A model generated the notes under the pieces. The model saw nothing but the letters and a program-made list of their open reading frames with translations. It did not search any database and was not told the DNA's origin. A stretch of DNA of 37,522 nucleotides from Polyangiaceae bacterium (GTDB taxonomy: Bacteria; Myxococcota_A; Polyangia; Polyangiales; Polyangiaceae): the NCBI GenBank assembly GCA_029261965.1, contig JAJDAH010000253.1:1-37522 (forward strand). The letters run 5' to 3'. The translations under genes and the position numbers were made by a program. Positions 9-5,885 of the stretch are shown here, piece after piece. The first letter of the stretch is position 1; each line of letters opens with the position of its first letter.

Positions 9-926
9 ATGGACGAGGTCTACGATCGAGCCATCGAGCAGCAACTCCCCGGCGAAAGACACCCGGTCGATCCGAGCGGAGCGGGCACTGGCGCGCAGGT
101 CGCTAACGTGAAGCCGTTCGATCGGAAGTTCGGCGCCGACCTCATTGCGGGCTTACCGCGGGCTCCAGCGGTCTACCTCTTCAAGGACGCGGAGGGTGTC
201 GTCATCTATGTCGGCAAGGCCAAGGACATCCGCCGTCGCCTTTCCGACTATCGCAACGCATCTCGGCGCAAGGCCCATCGAAAGATGCGGCGCCTCGTCC
301 GCGAGGCGTCCAAGCTCGAGGTGCGCCCAGTGCCGAGCGAGAAGAAGGCGCTCGCGCTCGAGAACGAGCTCATTCGCACGCTCGAGCCGCGTCACAACAT
401 TCAGGGGGCGTATTGGTTTCTGTACCCCGCCATCGGTGTCGTCCGCACGCGCCTGCGGACGATGTTCTGCTTCACCACCCGCGTCGAGGAGTTCGAGCAA
501 TTCGGCTTTCGCTGGTACGGCGTGTTCCGCTCGCGGCCCCGCGCCAAGGAAGCGTTCGACATGCTCACTGACCTGCTCGTGCTGCTCGGGCACCGCGAGC
601 GCGTGGCTTCGCTCGGCACGCCATCCATCCGAGGCTCACGCGTCGTTGGCATCCGCCAGCTCGATGCGCGCGTCGTCACCGCGACGGAGCAATTCCTGTC
701 GGGCAAACCGGGGGACGGGCTCGGCGCGGTGTCGCGCGCACTGCTCGACAAACCGCGCGCTCGCCGCGACGCGCGCGAAGTTCAAGCACAGCTACGTAGT
801 CTCGCTACGTTTCACCGAAGCGACCTTGCGCCCCTACATGCCGCTCTGCAACAGGCACGGCGTGCCGGGAGCTTCGTGTCGCAAGAAGAGCGGGACTTGT
901 TGTTCATCCGGGTTGGGCCGAAGTGA
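9..926 (+). CDS. GIY-YIG nuclease, UvrC N-terminal/Cho-like
   Basis: Predicted structure-related endonuclease of 305 residues. The GIY-YIG core is visible as PAVYLF at about residues 53-58, followed by VIYVGKA at about 65-71, then a basic RRRL segment and ALENELIRTLEPRHNI at about 115-130, which holds the metal-binding Glu and the Asn typical of UvrC N-domains. The length resembles the Cho excinuclease homologue (about 295 residues) rather than full UvrC (about 600); no UVR or RNase H-like domain follows. In UvrC/Cho this domain makes the incision 3' of a lesion, so a DNA-repair role is inferred. The ATG at 9 is the first start in the window, but the next 33 residues are low in family-like character, and a GTG at 108 would start just before the domain. 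The true start may even lie upstream of the window. Confidence 0.8.
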   Translation: MDEVYDRAIEQQLPGERHPVDPSGAGTGAQVANVKPFDRKFGADLIAGLPRAPAVYLFKDAEGVVIYVGKAKDIRRRLSDYRNASRRKAHRKMRRLVREASKLEVRPVPSEKKALALENELIRTLEPRHNIQGAYWFLYPAIGVVRTRLRTMFCFTTRVEEFEQFGFRWYGVFRSRPRAKEAFDMLTDLLVLLGHRERVASLGTPSIRGSRVVGIRQLDARVVTATEQFLSGKPGDGLGAVSRALLDKPRARRDAREVQAQLRSLATFHRSDLAPLHAALQQARRAGSFVSQEERDLLFIRVGPK

Positions 927-987
927 CGGGGAGAGCACGCGTAGTCGCGAAAGGACTGCGAGACCCAAAGATGTTATCGTGATCCGC

Positions 988-1506
988 GTGGACACGAACT
1001 TCGAGCTCACGACCAACACCGGCGAGCCGCTTCGGTTGAACGACACGCTCGAAAAAAACGCGGCCACCTTGCTTCTGCCGTATCGAGGTCGATGGTGACC
1101 GTATTGCGTGGGCTCCTGGAAGGGGCTCCAGAAACGGCGTGCTGCCTTCGAAGAGCTTGACGCGACCATCTATGGTGTCGCGGCCGACACACCCGAGCAG
1201 ACTCAGGCGCTACGCGACGAGCACGACATTCCCTTCACGATGATGTCGGACCCTGCGCTCGTTTGCCGGGAAAAGCTCGACGCGCCCATCAGCAGCCCCA
1301 AGTGCTTCTACACGGCGCTGCCGCTTCACCCCGAGCTTCGAGCGTACCCGGAGAAGGCGTTCCTGCAGCCGGCGCTCTTCATCTGGAAAGGCACGCGCCT
1401 GGTTTACGAGTGGCGTCACACCGAGACGCTGCTGAACCTGTTCGGAGCGCGCGGCCGTCCCACAGGAGTAGAGATACTGCAGATTGCCCGCGAGCATTTG
1501 CGTTGA
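988..1506 (+). CDS. Candidate selenoprotein: peroxiredoxin-like UxxC thiol oxidoreductase (TGA read as Sec)
   Basis: AhpC/TSA-type thioredoxin-fold protein, 172 residues if the TGA at 1096-1098 is read through. Reading through gives YRGRW-U-PYC, matching the YRGxWCPYC active site of peroxiredoxin-like families with selenocysteine (residue 37) in place of the first catalytic Cys; the second Cys is residue 40. Family character continues on both sides in the same frame: FELTTNTGEPLRLNDTL before it and ATIYGVAADT, FTMMSDP and QPALFIWKG after it. A hairpin fitting a bacterial SECIS follows the TGA. The GTG at 988 is preferred because TATCGT (975-980) sits 7 nt upstream as a possible -10 box of a leaderless mRNA; GTG 979 is the alternative. 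Without recoding only the 132-residue tail from GTG 1108 would be called. The remaining alternative is a pseudogene carrying a single nonsense mutation. Expected role: reduction of peroxides or disulfides in the cytoplasm. Confidence 0.78.
1096..1128 (+). promoter_or_regulatory. Sec UGA codon and bSECIS-like hairpin
   Basis: UGA lies at 1096-1098. A 7-bp stem pairs GGGCTCC (1110-1116) with GGGGCTC (1122-1128), including two G-U pairs, around the loop TGGAA (1117-1121). The loop has G at its second position, about 20 nt after the UGA. Bacterial SECIS elements read by SelB typically show a G among the first two loop bases, 16-37 nt from the UGA, so geometry and loop both fit. A competing hairpin, CTGG/CCAG (1116-1119 with 1128-1131), is also possible. 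Confidence 0.6.
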
Positions 1507-1585
1507 GTGGTTCTTCATCGTGCTGAGCATTCATGGACTGTCGGAATGACGCTCGCGTCGCGAGACGACTCGCGCCTCGGTCCGT

Positions 1586-2932
1586 TCAGGGGCACCCCGG
1601 TCGCGCCGGCCTGACTTCTGACTGACCCGGCCGAACCTGCGCTGCCTCGAACGCGATTCCAGCGCTCAGGGCGTCGCAAGCTCGTTCGTCGTCGGTGGTG
1701 CCGTCTCCCAAGACGTCCGCGTTCGCTCGAACGAAGTTCTCTAGACCGGCGTACAAAGGATTCGTCGGACAAAAGCCCACCGCTCTAAACGAATCGAGGA
1801 TGTCGTCGCTGAGGATCCGACCCGCCAACAAACCGTCGCGGACGAGCCACGTTCCGTCACGCCCGCGAGAAATCTCCCCCGTGTAGACTGCTTCGTCGGC
1901 GAAGGTCAGATCGAAACCCGGAAAGGGGTCGTCTTCTCCCGCGAATCCGAGCCTGGAGCCCCGAGGTAGTCGTGCGGCGAGATAGCCCTGGCGAACATAG
2001 GCGTCCGCGTCGGCGATCGTCGAATCCGGAAGCTGACCAGCCTCGGAAATGGGCGCGGTCAGCTCATTGGCCGAGATCCTCCACGGCGTCGAGGTGAGCC
2101 AGCGAGGGAACGTGTTTGCAAATTCCGCGAGCGGGCACGTCCACGGACTCGGAGTCTCCGTGCCCGGACTGATGTAGAAGTCGACCCGAACGCGGTCGTC
2201 GTCGGCCATGCCGTTGTAGCCTGTGACCTTCGTGATGATCGTGAACGCGCCGTTCCAGAGCAGGCAGTTGAGGTCGGTTTCGTTCACCCCGAGTGTCGTC
2301 GACAGGTCGGGCACCGCCGCGGCCAGCTCGAATAGCCGCCCGAAAGTATTGTCCCGACAAAGCTCGCCATCGAATGGGAGCTCTGCCGATCCGGAGCGAC
2401 ACGACGTTCGTGTTTCGCTCGCACAGGTGATGGAATTGGTGCAGACACCGTCGAGGTCCAATCCCAATTGCTGCCACTCGTCGGTCCCATTGCCGTTCGC
2501 GTCGAGCGCGCCGAGTCGCACGCTGGTCAACCCCAGATAAATGGGCGGCTGTTCGACGTCCATTCCCTGCTTTGGACGCATCTCCGGCGTCGGCACACCC
2601 GCCGTGTCACACCCTGAAGGAGACTGTCCGGACCACCAACACACGCCGGCGCCACAATCCGCCCCCGCGTTGCCGACACCGGCGTTGCCCCCGGCGCCAA
2701 CCCCGCCGCTACCTCCCGCGGCCGCCCCAAGACCTCCCGTTCCACAATCGCACGGCCCCAACGCACTGCCGTCCGGCAAACAGGCTTGCGCACCTTCGCA
2801 CGCGCCCGGCCCGAGGCACGCCCGCGTCATGCCAGGTCTACAAGTCTTGCCGGATGAACAACTCGGAAGAAGCGCCGCGAGCGTGAGGACGGCACTACAC
2901 ACCAAAGCGCCACTGAGGATCGCACCCCGCAT
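1586..2932 (-). CDS. Large predicted lipoprotein, function unknown
   Basis: 448 residues with a lipoprotein signal peptide; the hydrophobic core ends in LLPSC with the lipidated Cys at 25. A short Cys-rich segment follows (about 30-65: TCRPGMTRACLGPGACEGAQACL), resembling the repeated Cys motif of Polyangiales surface lipoproteins, then a Gly/Ala-rich linker (about 65-90). The remaining 350 residues form an acidic globular part with scattered Cys (for example at DLDGVCTNSITCASETRTSC) that I do not recognise. On the minus strand TATCAT (2942-2947) lies 9 nt before the ATG and no Shine-Dalgarno is visible. It is convergent with the selenoprotein gene. It is probably outer-membrane or surface exposed. 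Confidence 0.8.
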   Translation of the reverse strand: MRGAILSGALVCSAVLTLAALLPSCSSGKTCRPGMTRACLGPGACEGAQACLPDGSALGPCDCGTGGLGAAAGGSGGVGAGGNAGVGNAGADCGAGVCWWSGQSPSGCDTAGVPTPEMRPKQGMDVEQPPIYLGLTSVRLGALDANGNGTDEWQQLGLDLDGVCTNSITCASETRTSCRSGSAELPFDGELCRDNTFGRLFELAAAVPDLSTTLGVNETDLNCLLWNGAFTIITKVTGYNGMADDDRVRVDFYISPGTETPSPWTCPLAEFANTFPRWLTSTPWRISANELTAPISEAGQLPDSTIADADAYVRQGYLAARLPRGSRLGFAGEDDPFPGFDLTFADEAVYTGEISRGRDGTWLVRDGLLAGRILSDDILDSFRAVGFCPTNPLYAGLENFVRANADVLGDGTTDDERACDALSAGIAFEAAQVRPGQSEVRPARPGCP

Positions 2933-4520: not shown

Positions 4521-5885
4521 ATGGCAAGCAAGATCGACATAGACACTTCTCCGCAGGCGCGGGCCGCGGCGTCGGAGGACTGGGGGAATTTCGTACATGT
4601 GCCGCCACATGGCGTCGTTCGTCCGGTGTCGGCTCAGGACGTCGCCGCGGCGCTAGAGGTTGCGCGCAGCTGGCCGGGTGGACCCATCCCAGTGGCCGTA
4701 CGGGGGAGTGGCCACGCGCTTTGGGGTCAATGCCAGGTGGTCGACCGGCTTCAGGGACTCGTGCTCGACATGTCTTCGCTCCCCAAGACTCTGGAGGTCG
4801 ACGAGGCCGCGTCCTCGGTGGTGGTCTCGCCGAACATGTTCATTCGCGACGTGATTTCTGCTCTCGAGTGGAAGCACTGGCGGCAGCTCCCATCCGCCCC
4901 CGCCTTCTACAGTGTGTCGGAGCTCACCGTCGGGGGACTGCTCACTTCCGGCGGGCTCGGGTCGTGGTCAGTCAGGGCCGGTCCGGTCTGTGCCCACGTG
5001 TTGGCGCTGGAGGTCGTGACTGGAAGCGGCGCGATCAAGAACGTGCGGGTCGATGACCCCGGACCAGACGGCGACCTGGCACGGGCCATTCTCGGTGGTT
5101 ATGGCCAATATGCCGTCATCACGAAGGTCGAGCTGAAGACGATTCCGAAGTTCACGTTCCCATGGTTCGGCCTGCACTTCGAGAGCGACCCGGTGAAGTT
5201 CATGGAGAGGGCGGACGAGCTCGCCAATGGTTCACGCGTGCAGCACATGATCGGGCTCATCGCCCATGTGGCCGGCAAGTGGCGCTATGCCTGGGAGGTC
5301 ACTTCATACTTCGACAGCAAGTCCGAAATGGAGGGAGCCCGCGAAGAGGCTCGCAAGGCCGCCAGTTTTTCTGGTCTCGACGCGCCCGTAGGACCGCAGT
5401 TTGCCCCCCACACCAACGGTAAGGACGCGCCGCGCAAAAAATACGAATACTGGCTGAATACCCTCCTGCCGAGCGCCGCCGCCACCGGTGAGCTCCTGAA
5501 AGAAATCTTCGTTCCTGCAAACGAGGGCATCTTGAAGGAGACGTCGCCCGTCTACATCGTGTTGCCGATGGCGCGGTCCGCATTCGATGGTGTGCCCATG
5601 TTCACTCTGCCGGATCTGCGTCCCAACGAGCCAAGTGACTACTCGTACTACGTCGGATTCTTCTCCGGAGCCGACGATAGGGAAGGCGCGCAACAGCTCG
5701 AGGACTTTCTCGGCAAGGTGGCTTGGCCGGCATCGAAGGCCGTCGGTGGAAATCTGTACGACGTCGGATCGGTCGTGCTCGATTGGCCCGCGCACTACGG
5801 CGCCAAGTGGACGAAGGTGCAAGAACTCAAGAAGAGGTTCGACCCGCACAACATGCTGGGGCGCGGCTATCGAATGCCCTTCTAG
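4521..5885 (+). CDS. FAD-dependent oxidoreductase, cytokinin-dehydrogenase-like (VAO family)
   Basis: 454 residues. The N-terminal PCMH-type FAD domain shows GVVRPVSAQDVAAAL at 31-45, then RGSGHALWGQ at 61-70, where His65 aligns with the His that covalently binds FAD in plant cytokinin dehydrogenases and related oxidases. SELTVGGLLTSGGLG (about 134-148) is the second FAD-binding loop and VLALEVVTGSG the usual following strand. The C-terminus ends in FDPHNMLGRGYRMPF, the closing motif of this family. No signal peptide is visible, whereas plant enzymes are mostly secreted. The substrate is not predictable from sequence; amine, alcohol or sugar oxidation are all possible. It stands alone, downstream of the LysR/DUF1772 scar, with no obvious ribosome-binding site. 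Confidence 0.8.
   Translation: MASKIDIDTSPQARAAASEDWGNFVHVPPHGVVRPVSAQDVAAALEVARSWPGGPIPVAVRGSGHALWGQCQVVDRLQGLVLDMSSLPKTLEVDEAASSVVVSPNMFIRDVISALEWKHWRQLPSAPAFYSVSELTVGGLLTSGGLGSWSVRAGPVCAHVLALEVVTGSGAIKNVRVDDPGPDGDLARAILGGYGQYAVITKVELKTIPKFTFPWFGLHFESDPVKFMERADELANGSRVQHMIGLIAHVAGKWRYAWEVTSYFDSKSEMEGAREEARKAASFSGLDAPVGPQFAPHTNGKDAPRKKYEYWLNTLLPSAAATGELLKEIFVPANEGILKETSPVYIVLPMARSAFDGVPMFTLPDLRPNEPSDYSYYVGFFSGADDREGAQQLEDFLGKVAWPASKAVGGNLYDVGSVVLDWPAHYGAKWTKVQELKKRFDPHNMLGRGYRMPF

Follow-up and report, generated by a model that had tools for sequence, protein, structure and literature searches.

A probable selenoprotein of the peroxiredoxin-like UxxC kind encoded in a Polyangiaceae genome

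Introduction

The sections available to us of two surveys list, as a predicted selenoprotein family, a Prx-like thiol:disulfide oxidoreductase with the PF00578 domain and a UxxC or UxxU motif (PMC9312934, PMC13188914). As excerpted, an analysis of the Sargasso Sea set from 2005 already had a "Prx-like protein" with UXXC among the known families (PMC1088965), and a Prx-like UxxC selenoprotein family was counted again in 2006 in a text that also credits Anaeromyxobacter dehalogenans with 11 selenoproteins, three peroxiredoxins among them (PMC1794560, in part). True Sec-peroxiredoxins are set apart by the signature PxxxTxxU in the accessible part of one survey (PMC13188914). A search by title and abstract start of a partial literature collection found no papers on the selenoproteins of myxobacteria or Myxococcota.

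Here we analyse a gene in a window of 37,522 nucleotides, positions 1 to 37,522 of contig JAJDAH010000253.1 from a Polyangiaceae bacterium (GCA_029261965.1). By domain and motif the gene fits the known predicted Prx-like UxxC kind: it likewise has PF00578, with UxxC at the Prx active-site position and a putative UGA-encoded Sec. The type member of that family is WP_010940744.1; the subgroup of the window gene may stand apart from it by a C-terminal part of its own, FLQPA...NLxGARGRP, common to the four members. Sec-containing peroxiredoxins (PF00578/COG1225, TxxU) belong to the same fold family and have Sec at the same catalytic position, but the window reads LPYRGRWU, with G instead of T at -3 and L instead of P at -7, and has another Cys at +3. 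We therefore rejected membership among the true Sec-peroxiredoxins; the label "peroxiredoxin-like" given by the initial annotation holds as to PF00578 and is loose as to Prx membership, since the PxxxT of the signature is absent. The SelL-related redox protein profile NF040769 matches weakly over the domain (18.0 bits for the window, 27.4 bits for the relative in genome G112) and was rejected at 18.0 bits against a curated cut-off of 120; all NCBIfam matches of the window protein lie under curated cut-offs. The closest solved structures, by fold and by sequence profile, are Bcp/PrxQ peroxiredoxins, at 13-21% identity in the best 50 fold matches. These use Cys where the window protein would have Sec, and their active-site residues are spaced differently.

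Results

The features of the locus are as follows.

979..1506, + strand: predicted selenoprotein coding sequence, PF00578 AhpC/TSA fold, about 172-175 residues, from the domain match across the TGA, the frame and a four-row alignment
1096..1098, + strand: in-frame TGA in place of the active-site Cys, read as putative selenocysteine U40 (numbering from GTG 979)
1105..1107, + strand: TGC for Cys43, which closes the UxxC motif (UPYC) and is the same in all four relatives
1108..1506, + strand: 132-residue open reading frame with a GTG start, expected from gene callers that take TGA as stop
1110..1128, + strand: predicted bSECIS hairpin with an 8 bp stem and the apical loop GGA 19 nt after the TGA, -10.1 kcal/mol

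On translation, the frame 988-1506 contains a single internal stop, the TGA at 1096-1098 (LLLPYRGRW*PYCVGSWKGL), and the gene's own terminator (1504-1506) is also TGA. With the internal TGA read as Cys, PF00578 matches at 63.5 bits (E 2.4e-17; cut-off 26) in an alignment that spans the TGA, and the part after the TGA alone still matches at 32.3 bits (E 1.1e-7), indicating that both sides belong to one domain. The initial annotation had proposed that one AhpC/TSA-type protein continues across this TGA, that the TGA falls exactly at the active-site Cys of YRGxWCPYC, and that standard annotation would yield a truncated product of 132 residues. All of this is borne out by PF00578 on both sides without a second internal stop, by the reading YRGRW-U-PYC and by the 1108-1506 entry (132 residues) in the mechanical list of open reading frames. 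Its frame also stands; the start may be GTG 979 instead of GTG 988, both being in frame. The frame stays open well upstream of the likely start, and no clear ribosome-binding site was seen by eye for either GTG. Directly upstream lies an open reading frame with a GIY-YIG domain (9-926, + strand). Further along the window, 4521-5885 (+ strand) encodes a FAD-binding protein with the cytokinin-dehydrogenase C-terminal domain PF09265 (35.9 bits, cut-off 23), a domain known mainly from plants.

Setting aside the own genome, the top match listed from the order (183 genomes) is in G112, of the same family, 47% identical and with one TGA. Beside it we see, by eye, what we take to be a protein kinase gene and a YhbY-like gene. 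A two-row profile run against 377 genomes of the phylum adds, among the matches listed, G466, from another family of the same class, and G204, from a different class, with one TGA each; these profile searches scored about 8-11 candidates per genome, so that weaker relatives can be missing. Over the whole length of the four-row alignment the identities of the three relatives to the window are 46, 51 and 48%. The TGA occupies one column in all four rows, window included, with no TAA, TAG or second TGA in the aligned range, and each of the three other genomes has a tRNA-Sec. The active site is UPYC in the window and UPFC in the other three. Across the six pairs, amino-acid identity is 33-56% over the 36-39 codons upstream of the TGA and 40-55% over the 135-136 codons downstream. 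Codon position three varies most in 12 of 12 comparisons and position two least in 11 of 12, with one tie. Identity and codon-position pattern both point to constraint at the protein level on either side of the TGA. Decay after the TGA in close relatives, which the initial annotation had named as a sign against its proposal, was looked for and is absent, the two sides of the TGA being conserved to about the same degree.

The TGA is not confined to these four. In each of the 25 one-TGA matches listed, which come from 19 of the order's 183 genomes, the TGA falls on this active-site position; the count is a lower bound. This agreement in position, with the column common to the three relatives, argues that the TGA is not there by chance. 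Counted without regard to relatedness, selA is present in 18 of the 19 genomes with a listed TGA redoxin against 37 of the 164 others of the order (Fisher 6e-10), and selB in 17 of 19 against 38 of 164 (Fisher 2e-8). At the thresholds used, the selA exception, G142, has neither selA nor selB but does have a tRNA-Sec; G082, an 86% complete genome, gives no selB or tRNA-Sec match at those thresholds and has selA. Of 149 loci we set aside 17 that lacked the motif, 4 duplicates and 1 that gave no hit. In the 127 distinct homologues left, the motif position is TGA in 38, TGC or TGT in 89, and nothing else, as expected from the earlier suggestion that alignment would set the TGA opposite Cys. Public genome contigs contributed 74 distant homologues, mostly from Acidobacteriota, 64 of which keep the motif, all with Cys; they served as controls. 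The own genome has a second TGA redoxin (L128, C331:20643-20921, minus strand) that reads FYRGHWUPYC and has a strong hairpin (-13.4 kcal/mol), and also a Cys redoxin on contig C111. Elsewhere, a redoxin group in G215 and G385 (L153, L173) reads FYRGxWUPPC, has a C-terminal QPG...RPT segment and likewise carries TGA, and the TGA redoxins of G082 and G083 (L142, L143) and of G115 (L133) have the unusual active sites UIFC and UGHC.

The initial annotation had called for a search of the genome for selA, selB, tRNA-Sec and selD, and all four were found. The source genome measures 9.59 Mb in 480 contigs, with 3.51% contamination. Contig C448 carries the tRNA-Sec (69.5 bits; anticodon tca by ARAGORN), the adjoining SelB (302 bits) and the larger part of SelA (positions 74-454 of the profile, 466 bits). 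The N-terminal piece of SelA (profile positions 3-82) runs up to the edge of contig C342; the final 33 bases of C342 are identical to the 33 with which C448 begins, an overlap inside selA. SelD is on C111 (271 bits). The GC content of C448 is 65.7%, that of the window 65.0%. By tblastn the SelA of C448 matches 20 of the 20 SelA loci compared; the 11 best are all from the same family, the top one at 63% (G084). Given the agreement in GC and the kinship of SelA to genomes of the same family, contamination is an unlikely source of the Sec machinery. Two features expected of a bacterial selenoprotein, an in-frame UGA where homologues have Cys and a genome with SelA, SelB, tRNA-Sec and SelD, are present.

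For the sequence after the TGA, published limits on the bSECIS, as given in the accessible part of the source, are a loop of 3-9 nt with G in the first two positions, a stem of 4-16 bp, a distance of 16-37 nt from the UGA and an energy of -7.5 kcal/mol or lower (PMC13188914). We scanned under these limits, with synonymous recoding and Cys homologues as controls, in place of an unconstrained fold; folded without constraints, the 50 nt that follow the TGA are not more stable than shuffled sequences (z -0.25). The window hairpin lies within the limits. With one codon-usage table, taken from the window's open reading frames, used for all recodings, 10 of 500 synonymous recodings are as good as the native hairpin in the window and 1 of 500 in G112, and in 13 of 25 TGA homologues at most 25 of 500 are. 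A hairpin at or below -7.5 kcal/mol is found in 28 of 38 TGA homologues against 3 of 89 Cys homologues, or 2 of 25 once the Cys homologues taken from the contig collection are excluded. The energies differ between TGA and Cys homologues with a Mann-Whitney P of about 1e-18, or about 1e-9 in the restricted set, relatedness being ignored. Recoding is beaten at 0.05 by 20 of 38 TGA homologues against 1 of 89 with Cys. Among the close relatives, the simple scan passes G112 (-9.9 kcal/mol), while G466 (-6.2) and G204 (-7.4) miss the -7.5 limit on energy. The four hairpins show no significant covariation (67 of 500 shuffles do as well). By cmscan no Rfam family matches window positions 900-1600, and Rfam SECIS_1 (RF00031) has no match in the genome, nor in any of 14 control genomes.

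AlphaFold2, run on the window protein with the TGA as Cys plus nine Cys homologues, predicts a peroxiredoxin-like fold (pLDDT 75.7, pTM 0.76), with three poorly modelled stretches in the C-terminal part (106-117, 122-126 and 149-157, pLDDT below 50). Residue 40 sits just before the helix 41-51, which is the usual place of the catalytic residue in the peroxiredoxin fold. The best PDB fold matches are Bcp/PrxQ proteins (9a4d, 3hjp, 5iiz), ResA standing lower in the list, and the sequence-profile search agrees (2cx3, E 9.4e-9). We infer that the UGA at 1096-1098 would be decoded as selenocysteine by the cell's own SelA, SelB, SelD and tRNA-Sec, the bSECIS hairpin just downstream helping. The product would be a small single-domain redox protein of peroxiredoxin fold, its U-P-Y-C active site at the N-terminus of a long helix. 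Its selenolate would attack a peroxide or a disulfide, Cys43 would resolve the intermediate as a selenenylsulfide, and a thioredoxin-type reductant would presumably reduce the latter. Such a two-residue cycle, selenolate and then Cys43, appears most likely to us because the UxxC motif comes without the PxxxT part. Since that part of the peroxiredoxin signature is missing, peroxidase activity is uncertain, and the natural substrate may be a peroxide or a disulfide.

With a four-row profile, 317 genomes of the class and 90 of the class of G204 yield as next matches G576 and G573 (87 and 85 bits), both with TGA at the motif. In these 317 and 90 genomes, with limited candidates per genome, no Cys form close to the four relatives was found, the first Cys match coming at 69 bits. 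A tree of 88 homologues (38 Sec, 50 Cys), for which 25 of the Cys homologues from the contig collection were drawn at random, joins the four relatives in a clade with support 100/97 and no Cys member; the Sec label needs 5 changes on this tree.

Discussion

We conclude that the window gene at 979 or 988 to 1506 is almost certainly a selenoprotein gene, its UGA read as Sec and its product a small UxxC redox protein of peroxiredoxin fold. A Cys-type redoxin broken by a nonsense mutation, or a base misread in a fragmented assembly (480 contigs, 3.51% contamination), could give the same picture, as one base separates TGA from TGC or TGT. However, the TGA recurs in the same column, between intact flanks, in three further genomes whose proteins are 46-51% identical, and this largely refutes such an error. 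Moreover, TGA at the motif tracks selA across genomes, and the TGA homologues bring bSECIS-like hairpins that nearly all Cys homologues are without. We consider mutation or misassembly very improbable. It could also be argued that translation terminates at the TGA and that the open reading frame with a GTG start at 1108 is a separate gene of 132 residues without the catalytic residue. That frame does exist, but it covers only positions 45-101 of the 124-position PF00578 profile and so misses the active-site residue and the beginning of the domain, while the codons upstream of the TGA align in frame in all four relatives. We find this even less probable than an error.

The UGA might instead be decoded as another amino acid, by near-cognate suppression or a changed code, a proposal that nothing specific favours. 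This gene and 3 of 4 neighbouring Pfam-matched genes end in TGA, and in the alignment the relatives end where this gene does, at 1504-1506. TGA is thus not reassigned throughout, and the internal TGA is read by context. The genome also has SelB and a tRNA-Sec (anticodon tca), and the 127 motif-keeping homologues show only TGA, TGC or TGT, all of which leaves insertion of another amino acid with hardly any probability. Selenocysteine, then, is the reading that we retain.

As the kind of selenoprotein is already described, any novelty may lie in the subgroup, which going by the sequences numbers four members, or six if two looser ones are counted; all of them carry TGA and a related C-terminal segment. 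It is possible, although we lean slightly against it, that the gene belongs to a separate subfamily of PF00578 redoxins that uses Sec exclusively, is marked by a C-terminal segment of its own and occurs sparsely in two or more classes of a single phylum; no Cys form of it was found in the genomes searched. If true, the exclusivity of Sec would suggest a chemistry that Cys cannot replace.

A gene caller that takes TGA as stop would reduce this gene to a fragment that lacks the catalytic residue. Redoxins of this fold with a Sec-UGA are frequent in the lineage (at least 25 in 19 of the 183 genomes of the order), and many of its redox enzymes may therefore be misannotated. The homologues, paired as Sec and Cys forms, lend themselves to tests of what Sec contributes to this fold.
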